From contig CANJIS010000021.1 in the NCBI GenBank assembly GCA_947474565.1, positions 1 to 34,425 on the forward strand: a stretch of 34,425 nucleotides of DNA, given 5' to 3'. Source of the DNA: Alphaproteobacteria bacterium. Lineage in GTDB: Bacteria > Pseudomonadota > Alphaproteobacteria > Micropepsales > Micropepsaceae. A program made the position numbers and the translations under genes. The notes beneath the pieces were generated by a model. That model did not search any database. It was not told where the DNA came from and was given only the letters and a program-made list of their open reading frames with translations. Shown here one piece after another: positions 17,793 through 34,280 of the stretch. The stretch's first letter is position 1; the number at the start of each line of letters is the position of its first letter.

Positions 17793-18773
17793 TTATGCGG
17801 CGATCTTTTGGTGAAGCAAGCGTCTTTGAGTAATGGTGTTTCGTTTGATGCGTGCACGTTCGAGCAGGATTTCCTGGCCCCTACCGAAGTAGACGTCTGC
17901 TGGCGTTACGTTTTCCAGGCTCTCGTGGTAGCGCCGATGATTGTAGTAATCGATGAAGGCTGCGATCTGCGCCTCCAAATCACCAGGCAGGTAATAGTGT
18001 TCTAGCAAGATGCGGTTCTTGAGTGTCTGGTGCCAGCGCTCGATCTTGCCCTGGGTCTGGGGATGATAGGGCGCCCCACGGACATGGCTCATGTTCTGCT
18101 TGTCCAACCATTCGGCCAGTTCCCCAGAGACGTAACTGGAACCATTGTCGGACAGCAGCCTGGGTCTGTGCCGGACATGGGCCTGATTGCAGCCTGATGC
18201 CGTCAACGCTAGCTCCAGCGTATCGGTGACATCCTCGGCCTTCATCGTGGTGCACAGCTTCCAGGCGATGATATAGCGCGAGAAGTCATCCAGGATGGTC
18301 GAGAGATAATACTAGCCCCAGCCGATGATCTTGAGATAGGTGAAGTCGGTCTGCCACATCTGGTTCACCGTCGTGGTCTTGTCCTGGAACTCGTTGGCTG
18401 CCTTCATCACGATGAAGGCAGGGCTAGTAATCAGGTCATGCGATTTCAACAGCCGGTAAACAGTGGCTTCCGATACGAAGTAGCCCTGGGTATCGGTGAA
18501 CCGCACTGCCAATTCTCGCGGACTCAGTTCGGATTGTTCGAGCGCCAGTGCAACAATCTGGCTTCTGACCTCATTAGGAATGCGGTTCCAGACCCAGCTT
18601 GGCTGCGAGGGCCGGTCTTCCAGCGCTTCGGGGCCGCCAACCTGATATTGGTCATACCAGCGGTAAAACGTGGCCCGCGGCACACCGATCTGCTCCAGCG
18701 TCTTGCGCGCAGGCAGGTGTGATTGCTCGACAATTCTGATGATCTCGATCTTCTCCGATGCTGGATACCTCAT
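17793..18773 (-). pseudogene. IS3 orfB transposase (DDE integrase) with an in-frame stop
   Basis: Residues 1-153 (from ATG 18773) carry the HTH part 'TLEQIGVPRATFYRWYDQYQ' and the start of the rve core 'MWQTDFTYLKIIGWG', whose Asp is the first catalytic residue. A TAG at 18312-18314 replaces the Trp expected after 'IIGWG'. The frame then continues in phase with 'YYLSTILDDFSRYIIAWKL', 'RPRLLSDNGSSYVSGELAEW' (second Asp) and 'HPQTQGKIERWHQTLKNRIL' (catalytic Glu). The reading frame after the stop is intact to 17793, so a single nonsense mutation is the only visible defect of orfB. Confidence 0.85.
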
Positions 18774-25633: not shown

Positions 25634-25708
25634 TGGGGCGTCGCCAAGTGGTAAGGCACTGGATTTTGATTCCAGCATTCGAAGGTTCGATCCCTTCCGC
25701 CCCAGCCA
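25634..25708 (+). tRNA. tRNA-Gln (anticodon TTG)
   Basis: TGGGGCG pairs with CGCCCCA, then G and encoded CCA. The anticodon stem CTGGA/TCCAG with loop TTTTGAT gives TTG. The T-arm GGTTCGATCCC is intact. The accessory region begins at its 3' end: a repeat starting CAGCCA there recurs 8.1 kb downstream. Confidence 0.95.
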
Positions 25709-25940
25709 ACCAGTCCATGCTCCGCGTGGACTATCCGACCATAGGGAATTTCTGCCGCGCTTTCGGGCGGTTGGCCGGTCCCGTTTTCTATCTGAGCATA
25801 AGTAGCGGGGAAATAACCCGCAGAAAATGGCGCCCGTGTCGGTCCGTCTCAGGTCGCCGATTTTCAATTTCCAGAATGCAGACCCCATGCCGGGCAGAGA
25901 CCGGTTCGATGTCAGCGGAGACCGGTTCGAACAATCGCCA
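25703..25940. repeat. Copy A of a ~230-bp diverged direct repeat, at the tRNA-Gln 3' end
   Basis: This stretch starts in the last six bases of tRNA-Gln (CAGCCA) and aligns with 33817-34053 over its whole length with one single-base gap. Shared blocks include CCAGTCCATGCTC, TTTCTGCC, GAGCATAA and GCAGAAAATGGCGC. At its right end are two 21-bp tandem units beginning GAGACCGGTTCGA (25897 and 25918). The recombinase gene ends just beyond it. No gene is called here; minus-strand open frames contain the tRNA and look accidental. Confidence 0.75.
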
Positions 25941-25968
25941 ATGGCGCGAATAGGCCGCTCGAAAAATT

Positions 25969-27561
25969 CTAATATCCCCAACAATGGGGTACCGATTTTG
26001 CAAGGCCGGTGACCGTTAAGTGTGCAGGCGCTGAGCCGTCCACTATCTCTCTCACGAACGCTGGCGCAACGAACGCCAGTGGTAATAGCAGACGAACATG
26101 CCGCTCCACTTTGTTTTCCCTGTGAGCGATGTCCCCGATGGTCGCAACGCGGCCGCTGACCAGATCATCGAGCCATTGTCGCGCTTTCGCAATTGCTTTC
26201 AGCAATGCGTCACGGCTCTCGGGCTTTAATGCAGCCGTCGATTGTGCAGGCGCCTGAACCAGCCCTTTGACGGCGGTGAACGTGGTCGTTTCCCAAGGTA
26301 CCGACAATATAGTTGGCTGACGGACTTGATTGTGCAGCGAGCGATCTTCTTCGGTATCAGGCTCCGATGAGACGGACGACACGCGGCTAATAACGTGGAG
26401 TTCAATTGCCGTCGGCGTGACGACTGCGCGGGCCAATCTGTCTAGAGGATCTCCGTTTCTTTCCAGGGCGGAGCCGGTTTCTAACTGGTAACATGTTCGA
26501 AGAGTACGGGTCACGAGTTCTTCTATCTCCGCCGCCGGAATCCGCGGGATTGAGCCCACTAATTTGTCCCGCTTCTGGAGCACTGCATTGGACACGTAAT
26601 ACCGGTAGCGCACGCCGTTCTTTCTGGTGTGAGATGGCGTCATGCGATTGCCGCGATCATCATAGATACGACCGGCAAGAACCGAGGGTGAGGCTTTCAG
26701 TTTCAGTTGTCGCTCGACATTGTTTTTGGCGAGCAAAGCCTGCACTTCCTCGAAGAGGGGCCGGTCCAGAATGGGCTCATGCTCTGCCTGATGGATTTCG
26801 CCGTGGTAGGCGACTTCCCCGATATAGAAACGGTTTTTCAGAAAATAGGAGAGGGCGCCCACGCCAAACCGCCCGCCGCCGATAATTTGGCCATTGGCCA
26901 ATGTTCGACGTTTGGTCCGGATTCCGCTCTGATCGAGATCCGCCGCGAGGGTGCGGACTGCGCCCAGTTCCAGATACCGCCGAAATATCCCCCGCACCGT
27001 TTCGGCCTCGTCCTGCACGATGATGATTTTTTTGCTGACGCTGGCATATCCGAGCGGGACAGGTCCGCCCACCCAGATTCCCTTGCGCTTGGATGCAGAG
27101 ATTTTGTCCCGCACCCGCTCCCCGATGACCTCCCGCTCGAACTGGGCAAATGACAGCAGGACGTTGAGGGTTAGCCGCCCCATGCTGGTCGTGGTGTTGA
27201 AGGATTGGGTTATGGAGACAAACGACACGCCGTGCCGGTCGAAAAGCTCCACCAGCTTGGCAAAGTCGGCCAGGGACCGGGTGAGCCGGTCGACCTTGTA
27301 GACAACCACGATGTCGATCTTGCCGGCCTGGATTTCCGAGAGAAGAGCCTTGAGGCCTGGCCGTTCCAGGGAGGCTCCTGATATCCCGCCATCATCGTAG
27401 GGGGCATCGACAAGGCGCCAGCCCTCATGGGCCTGGCTCTTTATGTAGGCCTCACAGGCTTCCCGCTGGGCGTCCAAGGAATTGAACTCCAGGTCCAGGT
27501 TATGTTCGGTCGATTTGCGGGTGTAGATGGCGCAGCGGGCGACCTTGTTCGGGGTGGTCAT
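25969..27561 (-). CDS. Large serine recombinase (resolvase/invertase family)
   Basis: This is a 530-residue site-specific recombinase that cuts and rejoins DNA through a Ser nucleophile. The resolvase catalytic domain is N-terminal: 'ARCAIYTRKSTEHNLDLEF' with Ser17, then 'DIVVVYKVDRLTRSLADFAK' and 'LLSFAQFEREVIGERVRDKI'. The 'recombinase' domain follows ('GIWVGGPVPLGYASV', 'FLKNRFYIGEVAYHGEIH'). The zinc-ribbon Cys residues of some relatives are absent. It is the second gene after the DUF2924 gene, overlapping it by four bases, a pairing common in alphaproteobacterial islands. Its position next to tRNA-Gln and repeat A makes it the likely integrase of the island. Confidence 0.93.
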   Translation of the reverse strand: MTTPNKVARCAIYTRKSTEHNLDLEFNSLDAQREACEAYIKSQAHEGWRLVDAPYDDGGISGASLERPGLKALLSEIQAGKIDIVVVYKVDRLTRSLADFAKLVELFDRHGVSFVSITQSFNTTTSMGRLTLNVLLSFAQFEREVIGERVRDKISASKRKGIWVGGPVPLGYASVSKKIIIVQDEAETVRGIFRRYLELGAVRTLAADLDQSGIRTKRRTLANGQIIGGGRFGVGALSYFLKNRFYIGEVAYHGEIHQAEHEPILDRPLFEEVQALLAKNNVERQLKLKASPSVLAGRIYDDRGNRMTPSHTRKNGVRYRYYVSNAVLQKRDKLVGSIPRIPAAEIEELVTRTLRTCYQLETGSALERNGDPLDRLARAVVTPTAIELHVISRVSSVSSEPDTEEDRSLHNQVRQPTILSVPWETTTFTAVKGLVQAPAQSTAALKPESRDALLKAIAKARQWLDDLVSGRVATIGDIAHRENKVERHVRLLLPLAFVAPAFVREIVDGSAPAHLTVTGLAKSVPHCWGY

Positions 27562-28100
27562 GTGTGGGCCTCTGCAGGCTTTTTATGACCCTTAGCTGGC
27601 TTTTGCCGGCCGGCTCCCCCCGGTTCGGCCGCCGCGGTTGGTTCGCTCATCCCGCCCATCCGAAGGCCAAAAAACCGGGGCCCATTGCAGCTGGTGCCGG
27701 TGATAATCCGGGCAATGGCCGTCAGGCTGGGATAGTCCCCGTCACGCCAACGAAATCCCGCCGCCGTGACCACCACGGTGTGACGCTCGCCCTGGAATTC
27801 ACGGATGATTTCGGTGCCGGGCTTCAGGTAACGGGGTCTCTGGGCATCGCCGGGCCTGCCCTTGGCGTAGCTCTCCAGGATTTTAAGCGTCGCCCGGTCA
27901 TGGCCGCCAAAGGCATGTTCCTGGATGTGCCAAATGATGATTCGTACCAGCAGATCCCGGGTTAGGGCCTTGGGGACGTCCCTCTTGAAAACCTCGCGCC
28001 ATAGCGATCGCAAATCATCCAAGCACAGGGATTGGATGCGCTGAATTTCAGCCTCGATTTCCGCGGCGGCCGCAGGCCTCCCGGTATCTTTGGTGGTCAT
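27558..28100 (-). CDS. DUF2924-domain protein, partner of the recombinase
   Basis: This is a 180-residue protein with the DUF2924 signatures 'LRSLWREVFKRDVPKALTRD', 'LLVRIIIWHIQEHAFGG', 'LKPGTEIIREFQGERHTVVV' and 'FRWRDGDYPSLTAIARIITG', ending the domain with 'SCNGPRFFGL'. It starts 'MTTKDTGRPAAAAEIEAEIQ' and has a Lys/Ala-rich tail ('GRQKPAKGHKKPAEAHT'). The function is unknown. It is translationally coupled to the serine recombinase and is usually found beside such enzymes, so a role in recombination or DNA binding is the natural inference. Confidence 0.9.
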   Translation of the reverse strand: MTTKDTGRPAAAAEIEAEIQRIQSLCLDDLRSLWREVFKRDVPKALTRDLLVRIIIWHIQEHAFGGHDRATLKILESYAKGRPGDAQRPRYLKPGTEIIREFQGERHTVVVTAAGFRWRDGDYPSLTAIARIITGTSCNGPRFFGLRMGGMSEPTAAAEPGGAGRQKPAKGHKKPAEAHT

Positions 28101-28412
28101 GATTTGGCTCCGGTTGTGCAGCAGGCGCTGTCACTGCCGAAGGCCCAATCGGCTTTTCGCCACGGGCCGTGTCGGTTCGAACCGTTGCTCAGCTGCGCTC
28201 CATTCCCTCCGGAAGTCGAGTGGAAAACTTGCTTTTCTGGGGCGATTTTGGCGGAGAAATCCGGAGTTTGGCGACCACGCGCTGGGTATCGCCACAAAAG
28301 ACCGTAACTTTGGGATGCCTTCTCTATAAAGGCATCTCAGTCACGCTGAACGACCGCTGTTGACCTAAAGTGGACAGAGCGACCGTTGACTGAATGGCCG
28401 CTTCTGACCGAT
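28101..28412. other. Gene-free stretch between the DUF2924 gene and the IS1182 fragment
   Basis: About 310 bases contain no convincing gene. A 17-base sequence AGGCATCTCAGTCACGC (28330-28346) recurs with one mismatch at 33006-33022 directly after the autotransporter gene. The promoter of the DUF2924/recombinase unit should lie at its left end, but I see no clear boxes. Confidence 0.4.
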
Positions 28413-29420
28413 TGTGTTGAAAAAGTCGGTTCTGGAGGCGGAGTTGGTCTGGCTGGGACTGTTGCTGGCGCGGTGCCGGTAGCTGGTGGCGCCTACATGG
28501 CCGGTATTGGCAGTGGCATCGCGATCAACTTGGCCATCTTGCGTAGGTTCTGGGCGGTGGCGGCGAGGAGGAACTCGTCGCGGGCGCCGCAGGGGCTTCG
28601 TAGTCGCAATCGGTCAAGCCTGAGAATGCGTTTGAGGGGAGCGAACAGCATCTCGATTTTCTTGCGCTCTCGTCGCGAGGTCAGAAAAGCGTCAGTCTTG
28701 ACAATATCGCGCGCCCTGTCGCAGGCGGCTTCGAGGATTGAACGTGGCACTATGCGCGCCGGGGTCTTCGGGCAACACCGGGGTTTCAGGTCGCAGGCAT
28801 CGCAATCGTGTTTTCTGGCCCGATAGAGCAGCGCGGCACCATCGGTCAGTGTGCCCGTCGTGGTCATCGTCTTGCCAGCTGGGCAGACGTAGACGTCTGC
28901 CTCATGGTTGTAACCAAAATCGTCCCGCGAGAACGTGCCGTCCTTCCGGCCGGACTTGTCGAACACTGGGATATGCGGCTCAATCGCGCGCTCATCGACC
29001 AGCCAGGCGAGCATCTCGGCCGAGCCATAACCGGTGTCGGCCGCCAGACGCGCGGGCCTTACGTCGAACCGGTCTGCGGTGCGGGTAATCATCTTCCTGG
29101 CCGCCGTGACCTCGGCCTGACGCACGGCGGTCGTGGCTTCCACGTCCATGATCACCGCATGCTTCAGGTCAATCAGATAATTGTCGGCATAGGCATAGAA
29201 GGCAGGGCCGCCGCTGGCGGCAGCCCAGCGGGCGGCAGGATCGGTCGGGGAGACGAACTTCGGCTCGACTGGGGTTACGCCACCAAACGCGGCATCATTG
29301 AGAACAGCCAGATACTCCGTGACCGCGCGATTTGAGCTCGGGTCCAGGGGCCCAGTTCCAGTTACACCGCGCCGACGGTGGGCGTCCGCGGTGATCACGC
29401 TGGCGTCGACCGCGAAGCCT
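28413..29420 (-). mobile_element. Truncated IS1182-family element
   Basis: Only the 3' two-thirds of the transposase and the downstream end remain. TGTTGAAAAAGTCGG (from about 28413) is typical of the terminal region of such elements, but no partner repeat is present because the transposase N-terminal end is replaced by pyrophosphatase sequence at about 29420. Confidence 0.65.
28493..29419 (-). pseudogene. IS1182-family DDE transposase, N-terminally truncated
   Basis: About 309 residues survive. The frame runs from '[19 protein letters not shown]' through '[20 protein letters not shown]', 'RLAADTGYGSAEMLAWLVDE' (second catalytic Asp region), and 'RKHDCDACDLKPRCCP' with the family Cys cluster. 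The catalytic Glu region is 'SRRERKKIEMLFAPLKRILR', and it ends 'FLLAATAQNLRKMAKLI'. The usual protein is about 450 residues; the N-terminal DUF772 domain is missing. The first residues shown directly abut the pyrophosphatase reading frame on the other strand, so the break is a deletion or recombination joint. Confidence 0.85.
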
Positions 29421-29821
29421 TTCCTCTACACCCCGATGCGTTATCCGGGAAATTACGGTTTCATTCCCCACACGCTTTCCGGCGACGGCGATCCGGTGGA
29501 TGTGCTGATCTGCAATACAAGGGCGCTTTTCCCGGCGCGATGATCAACGTGCGCCCCATCGGCGTGCTCTTGATGGAAGACAATGCCGGCAAGGATGAAA
29601 AGATCATCGCCGTGCCCTCCGACCACCTCACCGCCCGCCATGATGGCATCAATGAATATTCCGACCTGCCCGACATCACCCGTCAGCAGGTCGAGCATTT
29701 CTTCGAGCATTGCAAGGATCTGGAGCCCAACAAATGGACCAAGATCCTGCGCTGGGGCGACGCCGCCGAGGCTCGCCAGATGATCCTTGAAGGCATCGAA
29801 CGCGCGAAGACCAATGGCTAG
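29420..29821 (+). pseudogene. ppa: Inorganic pyrophosphatase (class A), 5'-truncated and frame-broken
   Basis: The first part reads '[20 protein letters not shown]' and '[18 protein letters not shown]', with the active-site Asp cluster. In another frame it continues '[20 protein letters not shown]', '[13 protein letters not shown]' and '[20 protein letters not shown]', ending 'GIERAKTNG'. Adding one base in the TTTTCCC run (29527-29533) joins them. About 50-55 N-terminal residues and the start codon are missing because the IS1182 fragment begins there. The enzyme hydrolyses pyrophosphate to two phosphates and is normally essential, so another copy must exist elsewhere or the joint is an assembly artefact. 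Confidence 0.85.
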
Positions 29822-29991
29822 GCGCTGCGGCGCCATCTCTTTCCATCCCCGGAGCCACCCGCGCCGGGCCCGAATCCCCGTCGAGCCTGATAGACAACAA
29901 GCTTAAACGGCGCTACAGCCGCATGGGGACTTGAGATTCAGACATCGCCACAGTGCCAACAGCATTGGCGATGGTTCTGGGTTAGGCAAAT

Positions 29992-31077
29992 ATGACGAAG
30001 GCGCATTTCCTTGGATTGGATGCTACGCGCGGCGTCGCCGCACTCTGCGTGACCCTGCTCCATATCCAGATGTACTATTCAAAAAACGCAATCTATTTGC
30101 CGCACGCATATTTGGCGGTGGATTTTTTCTTTATGCTGAGCGGTTTCGTGCTGGCTCACTCCTACGAACCAAAATTCTCAACCGGCATGACATGGTGCAA
30201 GTTCATGCGGATCAGGGTTATCCGGCTATACCCCCTGCTCATCGCCGGACTTGTCGTAGGCATCGCGTACGTTGTCTTGCGCAATATGTTCTTGCCGAAA
30301 TACGCGACACCGGCGTCCGAGCTGTTCATGGCGATCGGGTTCGGGCTTCTGCTTGTCCCCACTTTTACGGATACCGGGGCCACCCTGAACGCGCCAAGCT
30401 GGTCAATCTTCTTTGAGTTGGTCGTAAACGCGTTTTATAGGTTTCTCGGAAAAAAAATCAGCAACACATTACTTCTTTTCATCATTTTGTTTTTTTTTGC
30501 AGTCCTGGGCGTCTTAGCCTGGTTCTCAGACTGGCAGGGCATCACCATTCCGGCGAACCGCTCTTGCGCAGCGAACCGCGCCGTTGGTTTTTTGCTGATG
30601 GGATCAGCCAGGGTGGGTTTCTGCTTCTTTGCCGGCGTGTGGCTTTACAGGCTGTTTACGCGCCAGCGCTTTCCCAAGTCGCTCGGCGCGCACCCTCTGA
30701 TTGCCAGCATCGTTCTTGTGGGCATCTTCTGCGCGCCGGAGACCTTTCCCGATACGTATAATTTTCTCGTTACAGTCCTGATATTTCCAATAGTCATTTT
30801 GGCAGCAGCGTCTTTCAAGCCGGCGAACATATGGGCGACACTGTCCAAATTCGGTGGCTGGATTTCGTACCCTTTATACGCCATCCACATGCCAGTCGCG
30901 GCAATAACAACGGCGGCGTTGGTGCATTTTCGAATGTACGATCTTTTATCTCCGACTATACGGGTGAGCGCCATTCTTTGCGTGTCCGTTATAGCGGCCG
31001 CCCTGTTGGGGAAGTTTTTCGATGATCCCATCCGGGCGTTCCTCGCCCGGCGAGCGGGCCCTAAGCGCAGCGCCTGA
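29992..31077 (+). CDS. Acyltransferase 3 family membrane protein (OafA/YrhL type)
   Basis: This is a 361-residue integral membrane protein with about ten transmembrane helices. The family start 'FLGLDATRGVAALCVTLLHI' (with the conserved His) is followed by 'AYLAVDFFFMLSGFVLAHSY' and 'WSIFFELVVNAFYRFLGKK'. Members acylate sugars of cell-surface polysaccharides or other small acceptors; the acceptor is not known. GC content is clearly lower than in the core genes around, with AT-rich codons and T-runs, consistent with recent transfer. It is followed 55 bases later by the autotransporter gene on the same strand. Confidence 0.9.
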   Translation: MTKAHFLGLDATRGVAALCVTLLHIQMYYSKNAIYLPHAYLAVDFFFMLSGFVLAHSYEPKFSTGMTWCKFMRIRVIRLYPLLIAGLVVGIAYVVLRNMFLPKYATPASELFMAIGFGLLLVPTFTDTGATLNAPSWSIFFELVVNAFYRFLGKKISNTLLLFIILFFFAVLGVLAWFSDWQGITIPANRSCAANRAVGFLLMGSARVGFCFFAGVWLYRLFTRQRFPKSLGAHPLIASIVLVGIFCAPETFPDTYNFLVTVLIFPIVILAAASFKPANIWATLSKFGGWISYPLYAIHMPVAAITTAALVHFRMYDLLSPTIRVSAILCVSVIAAALLGKFFDDPIRAFLARRAGPKRSA

Positions 31078-31132
31078 CGGGGCGGCATCCCACGCGGACG
31101 GCCAGTTTCAATAATCCTCAGACCAGCATATC

Positions 31133-33007
31133 TTGAGGCACGGGCTAGTCTGTGGGGGCGTTGGAGTGGGTTGCGGGCAGATATCATTAAGATTGACATT
31201 GCGAAGGTGTTTCCTGAAGGGATTCTTGCCAATCAGCGCGATCAGTGCTGCCGTTTTAGCGCCGCAGCCGGCTTTGGCCCAATCTTTCAGCAAGCTCATC
31301 GTATTTGGCGACAGCCTGAGCGATAACGGAAACGCGTCGCGATTTGGCGTCGTAGCGCCTGCAGTGTTTAACAACGGCCGTTTCTCGAATGGACCGGTCT
31401 GGGCAGAACAGCTGGGATTTAGCCCCCTCGGTGGGTATGGCATCGTCACCGGAAGCGCGGACTATGCGGTTGCGGGCACTTTGACCGGCGCGCAGGTTAC
31501 CCATCCCGGGATGCAGACCCAGATCATCAACTATCTGCAAGGCGGCGGGATTTTTACGGGGAGCACGCTCACGACTGTTTGGGGCGGCGTGAACGATATC
31601 ATCGCCGGCGTTAATCTGGCGAACAACGCAGCGAATTCCCAGGCCATTGTGTCTCAATATGCCACCGATGCAGCCAACAATATCGGAAGCGTACTCGAAG
31701 TGATCGCAAGTTCGGGCGGCGGAACGGTGTTGATCCTGAACCAGCCCAACCCGTCCTTGACCCCCTATTTCAAGGGCGCTGCCGGCGGGTCTCTCGCCGG
31801 TGCGGGTGCTGCGGTTTTGAACACGGCACTGGCTGCGCATATTGAGACGGAGCGGGCCGCACATCCGCAGACCAAATTTGTCGTTCTGGATGTTGCCGCC
31901 CTTTACAGCGCAGTGGTCAAAAACCCGACTGCCTTTGGTTTCGAGAACGCCACCGATTCCTGCTTTGGAGCGGGTAATCCATGTGATAATCCCGGAAGAT
32001 ATTTTTTTGGCGATGGCCTTCACCCCACCGCCGCCGGGCATATCTTGATAGCTCAGTTTGCCAAAGAAACACTCGACGGCCTGTCGAACTACGGCACCAC
32101 CGGCATTGCAACGGCCGCCGAGGCGGAAACCGTTCTGCGCCGACGCACCCATGCGATAGCGAACGCGCAATCCCATCTTCATGGCGCATATTTCGAGCGC
32201 GCCAGCCCGAAGTTGTCCTTTTCCGGATCAGAAAACCTCGCGCGTCAGAATGCACGAAACGGAGGCGCCATGCCCTCCGTATCGGATCAAATCATGAGTT
32301 TGACGGCATTCCTGGACTTCTCCCCTTCTCAAAACTGGAAATGGGGAGGGCAACTCGGATTCTCCTCATCGGATAGTAAAGCCGGGACGCTGAATTATGC
32401 CGACAAGGGTGCATCGGCCGATATGTATATTGGCTGGCGTTCGTCACGCGGCTGGTTCTGGAATGCATTTGCAGGCGCCGGATACGACAGCTTGAGCGTG
32501 AAACGTGGCCCGGCAGCCGGGCTGGTAAATACCGCGAGAACGACAGGATGGAGCGGCAGCGGAAAGTTTCAGACTGGCATATATCTGCCTTTGAGAAACT
32601 GGACGGTGTCGCCTCGCGCCGCTGTCGCATATATAAAAAATTCGGTGCAACCCTATTCTGAAAGCGGCCTTCTGCCTCGCATGAGCGTTTCCCGCCGCGA
32701 GATCACTGCACCTTCCGCTGAAGCCAGCTTGCGATTCGAAACCCCTGCGAAAAGCGTCTATGCTGAGTTGGGATGCCAAAAATATCTTTCCTTCGATATG
32801 AGTCCCGTCGAGGTAGCGCTTGTTAATAGCCTCGCGCCGAGTGTTACGACCGTCGTCGCAAGCCCCCCCACGGATCGCATGACATTTTCAACCGGCTTCC
32901 ACAGACAGCTTAGCGCAGGTTTTTCGCTCAACGTGGATTACCGTGGTGAATTTGGCAGAGGTTATGGGGCTCATACAGTGGCTCTGAGCTTGAACCTTAA
33001 CCGGTAG
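31133..33007 (+). CDS. GDSL-type esterase autotransporter
   Basis: This is a secreted esterase/lipase joined to an outer-membrane beta-barrel. The signal peptide region is 'FLPISAISAAVLAPQPALAQ'. The GDSL hydrolase passenger has block I 'LIVFGDSLSDNGNAS' (nucleophile Ser), block III 'VWGGVNDIIAG' and block V 'FFGDGLHPTAAGH' (Asp and His). From about residue 365 the autotransporter barrel runs with 'SSRGWFWNAFAGAGYDS' and ends 'HTVALSLNLNR', an Arg rather than the common terminal aromatic. The frame opens at TTG 31133 with other GTG/TTG choices at 31166, 31193 and 31199; no ATG precedes the signal peptide, so the start is uncertain. GC is lower than in the core region. Confidence 0.9.
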   Translation: MRHGLVCGGVGVGCGQISLRLTLRRCFLKGFLPISAISAAVLAPQPALAQSFSKLIVFGDSLSDNGNASRFGVVAPAVFNNGRFSNGPVWAEQLGFSPLGGYGIVTGSADYAVAGTLTGAQVTHPGMQTQIINYLQGGGIFTGSTLTTVWGGVNDIIAGVNLANNAANSQAIVSQYATDAANNIGSVLEVIASSGGGTVLILNQPNPSLTPYFKGAAGGSLAGAGAAVLNTALAAHIETERAAHPQTKFVVLDVAALYSAVVKNPTAFGFENATDSCFGAGNPCDNPGRYFFGDGLHPTAAGHILIAQFAKETLDGLSNYGTTGIATAAEAETVLRRRTHAIANAQSHLHGAYFERASPKLSFSGSENLARQNARNGGAMPSVSDQIMSLTAFLDFSPSQNWKWGGQLGFSSSDSKAGTLNYADKGASADMYIGWRSSRGWFWNAFAGAGYDSLSVKRGPAAGLVNTARTTGWSGSGKFQTGIYLPLRNWTVSPRAAVAYIKNSVQPYSESGLLPRMSVSRREITAPSAEASLRFETPAKSVYAELGCQKYLSFDMSPVEVALVNSLAPSVTTVVASPPTDRMTFSTGFHRQLSAGFSLNVDYRGEFGRGYGAHTVALSLNLNR

Positions 33008-33816
33008 GCATCTCAGTAACGCGCGGCGACTCGGAACTAAAAAGAACCGCACCGTCAGAACTTCCTGCCATGCGCATTGAGCGCCGTCCTGACGGCAACC
33101 ACACTTTCGCGCACGCCCTGCTTCTTGTTGCCCATGCTGATCACCGCCTGCGCCGCCGGAGCATACTGCACCGTGATCCCGGCGCGTTTGCAAAGGTATT
33201 CCCAAGTCGCAGATTTTGGTGCGACTGCGAATGCCCGCTTTGGGTGGCGGGTTCAATAGGTCGGTGCAACACCTTCTAGTCTTTCTAGATCAGGAGGTAA
33301 GCGCATGGAATGGACGGCCCGGATACCCGCCAGATCTAGCAGTCGGTCGAAGCCGACCCGGATGTCACTGTCGAGGCTCGGCAGCAGGATTGGCTCGCTG
33401 CGAAGATCCTCCGGGAAGCGGAGCATGGATTTGTCGCGCCTCGGCCGGCCGACTAGGCTGACGGGCTGCTGGTTGAGCAGCTGATTGCGAAATGGAACGC
33501 GGACGTCTCGTTGGCTATTCTGCGCATAGGAGTTGGGCACGCCGGGGCGGCGCGCGCCATGAACGCGCCTTCTCGGTATTAAGGGCGCAATCCATTGGAT
33601 GCTGGCAAATTCCCCTGTTCCGCTAGAAAAATTCCCTGTTATCCGGAGAAAATTCCCTGATAATTGTAGCAGGAAATTGCGGGTAACTCCCTGACTCTGC
33701 CTTCGTATCTGGCTACGCGAGCGTGCCAAAACCGCCTTTTTTCCTAAAATTCCCTGTTATTTTCCCTGTTAGCAGAGAATTTTAGGCGGAGCCCGGTTCG
33801 GACAGCACTGCGTCCA
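33008..33816. other. Degenerate accessory stretch with no confident gene
   Basis: About 800 bases hold fragments only. A 59-codon minus frame ending at 33055 ('TWEYLCKRAGITVQYAPAAQ', 'VVAVRTALNAHGRKF') looks protein-like and faintly recalls serine recombinases, but has no start. A 158-codon minus frame (33253-33729) spans tandem AAATTCCCTG repeats and has no known domain. I do not call either as a gene. Confidence 0.45.
33607..33786. repeat. Cluster of AAATTCCCTG repeats with a palindromic hairpin
   Basis: AAATTCCC units begin at 33607, 33629 and 33650 (steps of 22 and 21 bases), with another at 33747 and a related TTTTCCCTGTT at 33760-33770. The last group forms a hairpin: CCTAAAATTCCCTG (33743-33756) pairs with CAGAGAATTTTAGG (33773-33786) with one mismatch. 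Confidence 0.7.
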
Positions 33817-34053
33817 CAGCCATCCAGTCCATGCTCTGGGTGGAATATCCAAACGCCAGAATTTTCTGCCGTGTATTCAGTCGGTTAGCCGGCGATGTTT
33901 TCGGTATGAGCATAAAATGGGTTGAATTGGCGTGCAGAAAATGGCGCTCGCTTCGGCCAGTCTCTGGTCAGTGATTTTCGATTTCCCGATTTTGCGAAAC
34001 ACTTAGCTTGAGACCGGTTTGAGTCCACCAGAGACTGGTTTTGGACGCGTAAC
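33817..34053. repeat. Copy B of the ~230-bp diverged direct repeat
   Basis: Homologous to 25703-25940 in the same orientation with one single-base gap. It begins CAGCCATCCAGTCCATGCTC, matching the tRNA-Gln end and following bases of copy A. It contains 21-bp units beginning GAGACCGGTTTGA (34010) and GAGACTGGTTTTG (34031), and a third partial unit (TTGAGAC, about 34059). Confidence 0.75.
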
Positions 34054-34059
34054 CCGCTT

Positions 34060-34280
34060 GAGACAAAATTATCGCGGGCGACAAGGACTAAGTATTTATG
34101 ACAAGTGGAAATGTAGGCCCGATCGTTCCGACCCTTCATGTTGTTTACTACAGGAATTGAAATCACGGTAAATCTCGGAAAAGTCTCTTTCAGCAAGATC
34201 TCAAAATTTGCGATTTCGTTCGCATCTATAGATGCGAACATCACGCCATCATCGGCAAGAAATTCCCGCAAAAGCCAAGG
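34060..34280 (-). pseudogene. Fragment of a site-specific DNA methyltransferase (type III Mod-like)
   Basis: The minus frame reads 'LLREFLADDGVMFASIDANE' then 'IANFEILLKETFPRFTVISI' and 'KGRNDRAYISTCHKYLVLVA', matching the middle of type III/beta-class adenine methyltransferases ('L..DG..F.SIDDNE'). The catalytic DPPY and SAM motifs are not present in the piece. It runs into repeat copy B at its 3' side and into unrelated plus-strand coding at its 5' side. It is a remnant, not a working enzyme. Confidence 0.6.

Follow-up and report, generated by a model that had tools for sequence, protein, structure and literature searches.

The 34,425-nucleotide contig CANJIS010000021.1 of an alphaproteobacterium of the family Micropepsaceae, analysed over its entire length (hereafter referred to as the window), carries an island of 8,114 bp directly 3' of the CCA end of an intact gene for transfer RNA (tRNA)-Gln; sequence comparison places its limits at 25709 and 33822. 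This island is very probably an integrated mobile element, from a family that has a large serine recombinase as its integrase and a DUF2924 protein, and that targets tRNA 3' ends. The observations carrying this reading, all made at the level of sequence, are the fixed layout of related elements, the convergent linkage of tRNA and recombinase genes, a conserved distal end, and the match between the flank of a sister element (genome G070) and an empty site. Two diverged copies of a repeat, A and B, bracket the island; the tRNA-proximal arm and the distal end of the element are hereafter referred to as P' and P (Table 1).

Table 1. Features of the island and its borders (window positions).
Feature	Positions	Strand	Evidence
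tRNA-Gln(TTG), target gene, intact	25634..25708	+	ARAGORN, Rfam tRNA
Common CAGCCA core at attL, formed by the final six tRNA bases	25703..25708	+	sequence
Copy A, tRNA-proximal arm (P'), with GAGCAT at 25794, GTCTC at 25846, GAGACCGGTT at 25897 and 25918	25709..25940	+	
Large serine recombinase, 530 aa	25969..27561	-	Resolvase PF00239, Recombinase PF07508
DUF2924 protein, 180 aa, 4-nt overlap with recombinase start	27558..28100	-	
DDE transposase open reading frame (ORF), insertion-sequence remnant, directly before the broken pyrophosphatase	28493..29398	-	PF13751, PF01609
Inorganic pyrophosphatase gene, broken (two frames, internal stop)	29415..29806	+	PF00719
Acyltransferase, cargo	29992..31077	+	PF01757
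GDSL lipase-autotransporter, cargo, in 1/69 genus genomes (this genome only)	31133..33007	+	
Distal element end (P half), with TTCCCTG at 33750 and 33762, CAGAGAA at 33773, GAGCCCGGTTCGGACAGCACTGCGTC at 33789-33814	33750..33814	+	
Common CAGCCA core at attR, where the island ends on the right	33817..33822	+	
Copy B, arm of the presumed older element, with GAGCAT at 33908, GTCTC at 33960, GAGACYGGTT at 34010 and 34031	33823..34053	+	

Next to copy A, as an earlier examination of the letters alone (the sequence-only reading) had noted, ends a minus-strand ORF for a serine recombinase (end at 25969), in which a Resolvase domain (E = 1.6e-41) precedes a Recombinase domain (E = 1e-14). Residue S17, presumably the catalytic serine to judge from its N-terminal motif, is invariant across 12 aligned family members, and a profile of these members matches the TP901-1 integrase (3bvp, 1.9e-31) and further serine integrases. 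No zinc-ribbon domain was matched in Pfam at E = 0.001; the definition of large serine recombinases in the available text of PMC12884075 does not include one. With the window recombinase as query, 22 matches were obtained in 18 of the 69 genus genomes, and 13 of the 22 loci have a tRNA gene past the 3' end of the recombinase, convergent in every case (Gln-TTG, Gln-CTG, Val-GAC, Val-TAC, Thr, Lys, His, Ser and Met). In genome G066, 46 residues from near the C-terminus of such a recombinase are encoded 3' of the tRNA-Gln arm, at the contig end. A scan of named genomes yielded at least 583 confirmed stretches, the best 80 of which were examined and are thus the most similar loci rather than a random sample. 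The nearest downstream tRNA lay less than 1 kb away (150-804 bp) in 47 of these 80 loci, convergent in 47/47 and covering 17 anticodons, and at 1.6-8.9 kb in eight more, all convergent; on the other side of the recombinase, none of the 73 loci with room had a tRNA within 1.5 kb. In all, the 80 loci contain 62 tRNAs in 1.33 Mb, and 47 of the 62 occupy this single small place. The DUF2924 gene adjoins the recombinase in 77 of the 80. Because all 47 tRNAs closer than 1 kb are convergent and span 17 anticodons, the neighbouring large serine recombinase, with DUF2924, is judged from these comparisons to be part of the element. The supposition that the repeat family is tied to recombinases and tRNA ends was borne out, related arms being so linked.

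Target use was followed on a quick tree of 59 recombinases, from which the partial loci L110 and L111 and other loci lacking a tRNA were left out (L096, with its tRNA 3.3 kb away, was kept). At least 25 changes of target amino acid are needed on this tree (least possible number, 11); shuffled targets gave a mean of 37.6 changes, with values as low as 25 in 0/200 shuffles. On this phylogenetic evidence, tRNA targets are inherited, yet often switched, as in the sister pairs Val/Lys, Gln/Tyr and Ser/Asp.

The arm-like sites of the island recall the attachment site attP of tyrosine integrases. Moreover, those enzymes, to which this role is generally credited, usually target tRNA 3' ends (PMC4383910, in its available sections). 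A tyrosine integrase, since lost, could then have built the island, with the serine recombinase as cargo or as a latecomer to a tRNA hot spot, an explanation that we consider improbable. The single orientation and small distance of the recombinase at 47/47 loci with a tRNA within 1 kb, across 17 tRNA kinds, argue against it, as does the presence in viral contigs of a junction of P, CCA, arm and recombinase; within the window's own genome, PF00589 has two matches only, on contigs C2 and C8, with none on the island contig. A tyrosine integrase with arm sites was our first idea and was dropped because of this distribution of PF00589 and the linkage to the serine recombinase. A test for tRNA islands found an intact tRNA at one end and no tyrosine integrase in the window; as a displaced tRNA 3' fragment, the window has CAGCCA only, the GGTTCG further left belonging to the conserved P half.

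The description of the repeat as about 230 bp long with a single one-base gap holds. Positions 25700-25875 and 33814-33989 form a gap-free alignment (128/176 identities; pairwise blastn, E = 5e-26; E = 1.9e-22 for the same match in a self-comparison of the window), and 119 of the first 166 bases 3' of the CCA are identical. Beyond base 166 the copies align best with a one-base shift (29/71 identities; three further shifts that were tried gave 18-21/71), and this tail is weakly conserved except for a paired motif. As had been reported, copy A starts in the last six bases of tRNA-Gln, which ends at 25708, CAGCCA is present in both copies, and both end in 21-bp units starting with GAGACYGGTT: GAGACCGGTT occurs twice in copy A (25897 and 25918), and GAGACCGGTT (34010) is followed by GAGACTGGTT (34031) in copy B. 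The pattern GAGACYGGTT-N4-20-GAGACYGGTT has seven matches, in five of the 69 genus genomes (reversed control, 0). When used as a DNA query, the repeat matched 350 phage records, of which the 20 listed cover the tRNA part only (query bases 1-73 of 321), and gave zero matches against plasmids. A fragment resembling a DNA methylase (PF01555, E = 0.001, under the curated cut-off) overlaps copy B at 33885-34271 on the minus strand.

Compared with shuffled sequences, copy B shows somewhat better folding (z = -2.3), which would fit a repeat that is a terminator region of tRNA-Gln or a conserved RNA, passed down together with this gene and duplicated once. This origin is most improbable. The z value of copy A is -1.2, RNA folding found no shared structure among arms, and an alignment of nine arm sequences gave a covariation term of 0.1 and a consensus of -8 kcal/mol, values that do not indicate covarying helices. 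In the Rfam scan, the window contained four tRNAs and nothing else, and the structured-RNA option offered by the sequence-only reading found no support. Furthermore, 45 of the 55 tRNA-Gln(TTG) loci start differently right after the CCA (one has a single base there), 10 start with NNCAGTY as copy A does, and six have GAGACYGGTT no more than 800 bp from the tRNA-Gln. Arms resembling copy A are also found 3' of tRNA-Lys (G013) and in G066 contig 29, where no tRNA was seen within 3 kb. The arm sequences diverge strongly and the distances between sites are kept; by these comparisons, the repeat arm is part of the mobile family and not of the tRNA.

At the far end of the island, the sequence left of copy B consists of TTCCCTG, TTCCCTG, CAGAGAA and GAGCCCGGTTCG-N7-CTGCGTC, then CCACAGCCA. 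The corresponding consensus, GAGACNNGTTCG-N7-CTGCGTC ahead of CCA, is also present in other Alphaproteobacteria and in viral contigs, and the layout has the same fixed geometry in the window, four other loci (L118, L119, L127 and L128) and G066 contig 29. The final bases resemble tRNA ends (GCCA or ACCA). An interpretation of this sequence as a decayed tRNA-Gln end was dropped, since its spacing recurs in other genera and marks it as a conserved P half. With one mismatch allowed, the pattern was matched 43 times, the sites being spread over 31 of 385 class genomes (reversed control, 12, counted from the table), 13 of the 43 without an examined locus; exact matches were found in 16 viral contigs. 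CCA was at the fixed place in 20 of the 30 genomic loci examined (including the window), 18 of these 20 also having the arms, and in 13 of the 16 viral sites, 11 with arms. Some of the matches are chance, because not all have CCA at the fixed place or the arms; a single match of the strict regular expression in L195, on the other strand and without arms, was also taken as chance. Scored with a matrix trained without it, the window site reached 61.9 (training minimum, 37.7; shuffled maximum, -4.5), and a scan with this matrix gave 21 matches above threshold, 12 scoring at least 14.8 and nine between -2.0 and 2.1, the latter unused. After the distal end come CCA, an arm and a recombinase 215-375 bp away in five viral (L226, L231, L232, L236 and L240) and three genomic loci (L119, L127 and L224), junctions that are as expected of an attP or of a tandem arrangement. 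Fragments of tRNA 3' ends occur at the distal sites of L142, L154, L126, L165, L153 and L182, and are clear in L142 and L154. The distal site of L142, about 9.5 kb from tRNA-Gln, shows a copy of about 45 nt of this tRNA, from the anticodon region to CCA, and then a second arm. In L165, the fragment lies between tRNA-Ser and the recombinase, about 200 bp behind the tRNA, an arrangement suggestive of a very small element in front.

The strongest case for an empty site is that of G070, in which an arm lies 3' of tRNA-Gln and a distal end 3.2 kb further on. The approximately 85 bases past its distal CCA correspond to the hairpin region directly 3' of tRNA-Gln in G071 (score 87) and G087 (80), with scores of 48 for G017 and G008 and a shuffled maximum of 26; as aligned, this sister element sits exactly between CCA and the native downstream sequence. 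The window is a second, less clean case, G070 alone providing a clean empty site by sequence matching. The window sequence past the distal CCA matches that downstream of tRNA-Gln in G015 (score 54, 69% over 224 bases) and G086 (44; shuffled maximum, 28), both of which have a B-like arm directly 3' of tRNA-Gln; copy A, with 58, scores slightly above them. As the G015- and G086-like sequence is also an arm, and in view of the slightly higher score of copy A, the island would most simply have landed in front of an older element's arm. The proposal of an island of about 8.1 kb bounded by attachment sites therefore stands in part: its limit at the tRNA-Gln end and the recombinase link are retained and B does mark a junction, but the 230-bp repeat is not the duplicated core, which is 6 bp (CAGCCA), the copies appear to be the tRNA-proximal arms of the present and of an older element, and the evidence for an island end at B lies left of the repeat, at 33750-33814, outside copy B as first drawn. 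Free tRNA-Gln ends exist in relatives.

The insertion-sequence remnant and the broken pyrophosphatase within the island would also fit a different origin, in which A and B are the ends of two different elements and the 8.1 kb between them a mosaic of deletions and insertion sequences rather than one moved unit. Tandem ends are seen elsewhere (two distal-end sites 5.6 kb apart in G066 contig 29), and the contig stops soon after B, 372 bases beyond 34053. We nevertheless consider such a mosaic unlikely: in L128, the tRNA-side arm, recombinase, cargo and distal end have the same order and orientation as in the window, and the sequence to the right of B matches that downstream of tRNA-Gln in G015 and G086.

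For a single integrated element, we propose that the attP of the free form would join a P half (TTCCCTG/CAGGGAA arms, GAGACNNGTTCG-N7-CTGCGTC, CCA) to a P' consisting of the copy-A arm with its GAGAC/GTCTC sites, the recombinase gene being next. The target site, attB, would be the T-arm and acceptor end of the tRNA (GGTTCGA...CCA). Integration would keep the tRNA whole and place P' behind it, and the old downstream DNA would come to lie after P-CCA, on the distal side of the island. In the window, this old DNA would be the arm of the earlier element, displaced by the island, so that two diverged arms now bracket it. We infer from these sequences the joining by this recombinase, the exact crossover and the recognition of the T-loop.

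Several points weigh against this model. Known serine integrases have compact attachment sites, unlike arms with distant sites. No downstream tRNA was present in the DNA examined for 19 of the 80 loci, with six others ending too early. The distal end at 7983 of L164 (score 69.4), around which there are additional TTCCCTG repeats, lies 1.7 kb in front of tRNA-Gln and does not fit one simple element, and the distal junctions of G018 and both of those of G066 contig 29 have no match above shuffles downstream of tRNA-Gln. In a control set of PF07508 recombinases (58 class genomes, 33 matches listed, 30 loci examined), 2/16 loci without DUF2924 face a convergent tRNA (L252 Asn, L262 Gln), with a further locus carrying a tRNA on the opposite side, versus 7/14 with DUF2924 facing one in the short flank, the window included (Fisher p = 0.046). 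Because some loci without DUF2924 face a tRNA, this siting may not be exclusive to the DUF2924 clade.

In the 47 tRNA-recombinase intervals, GAGAC/GTCTC occurs 81 times (27.4 in shuffles), with 20 occurrences in the 100-109 bp bin (maximum in any bin, 7 in 1000 shuffles) and clustering of GTCTC at 130-150 bp; the clade of the window has sites at about 85, 137, 188 and 209 bp. GAGACC[GA]GTT is found three times each in L101, L113 and L114, within or near the recombinase gene. The predicted structure of the DUF2924 protein (mean predicted local distance difference test, pLDDT, 84; predicted template modelling score, pTM, 0.51) had no Foldseek match in PDB at E ≤ 0.001, and the best value in a profile search of PDB sequences was 0.29. 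Its N-terminal part resembles chain 4qoz_E, which we take to be a SAP domain (Z = 8.5, 2.5 Å, 56 residues), and its C-terminal part the MPND RAMA-DNA complex 7ydw (Z = 6.0, 3.3 Å, 62 residues), both Z values being middling; Pfam RAMA matches 16 of 50 DUF2924 members (best, 7.7e-6). From this model, DUF2924 may be an arm binder or a directionality partner. A broader idea is possible, if doubtful: the whole serine-integrase clade would read features common to all tRNA genes (T-loop GGTTCGA and acceptor CCA), switch freely between tRNA targets, and act with DUF2924, as a SAP-RAMA protein, on the GAGAC sites of long arms to form a lambda-like arm complex.

The elements of TP901-1, A118, SPbeta and phiC31 likewise have Resolvase and Recombinase domains in one protein; here, by contrast, the target is the 3' end of many kinds of tRNA genes, with a DUF2924 gene ahead of the recombinase and arm sites at a distance of 100-210 bp from the core. 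Islander-type islands in tRNA and transfer-messenger RNA (tmRNA) genes share the feature of an intact tRNA at one end; the displaced 3' fragment at the other is shared by L142 and L154. The recombinase of Wolbachia phage WO is 34% identical over 99% of its length, with DUF2924 beside it in wStri (PMC10299305, available text); the accessible part of PMC9203015 places WO sites in a magnesium chelatase gene and in an intergenic region, with no tRNAs named there. Unlike phage WO, the island ORFs scanned matched no phage structural families (Pfam, PHROGs). The recombinase of Acidithiobacillus phage AcaML1, for which the annotation gives a large and a small subunit, shares 49% identity over residues 9-374; the attB of this phage is listed as 'srrA', with 10-bp repeats (PMC3826726, sections available), which we take to be the tmRNA gene ssrA, a tmRNA in place of a tRNA. 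The ends of its record carry CCACCATTTA and GGGTTCG...CCGCCACCA. Paracoccus phage vB_PamS_Pami6, a single case likened by description only, has a serine recombinase and a predicted site in tRNA-Met; in the same study, as far as its text is available, 11 of 15 serine recombinases had no identified site (PMC6536676). These two phages are isolated precedents. The TIGER/Islander survey of 2025 gives integrase types and site types, which are not crossed with each other in its available text (PMC12424338), and its data may therefore already contain cases; the word tRNA has 0 occurrences in the available text of Durrant 2022 (PMC10083194). We recognised no description of a tRNA-targeting serine-recombinase family in the literature searched, which excluded preprints and most subscription papers.

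As judged from these genomes, serine-recombinase elements at many different tRNA genes are widespread. Such a family would explain islands and prophages whose sites have not been found, as in Paracoccus, and the signature of the distal end provides a recognisable mark for delimiting them. It would also offer serine integrases with landing sites, tRNA genes, that occur in all bacteria, and makes testable the question of how one recombinase lineage switches among at least 17 tRNA anticodons.

In L082 (4700-10324, G066 contig 29), the two distal-end sites lie around genes of helicase, AAA and RNase_H_2 types, possibly a tandem array with defence-like cargo. A second pyrophosphatase match in the window's genome is located at the start of contig C33 (144-545, E = 1.7e-47). 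Elsewhere in the window, a transposase that matches HTH_32 and rve_3 and is split into two or more ORFs lies at 17793-18773 on the minus strand, and a perfect 22-bp palindrome is present close to the contig end (34218-34239).

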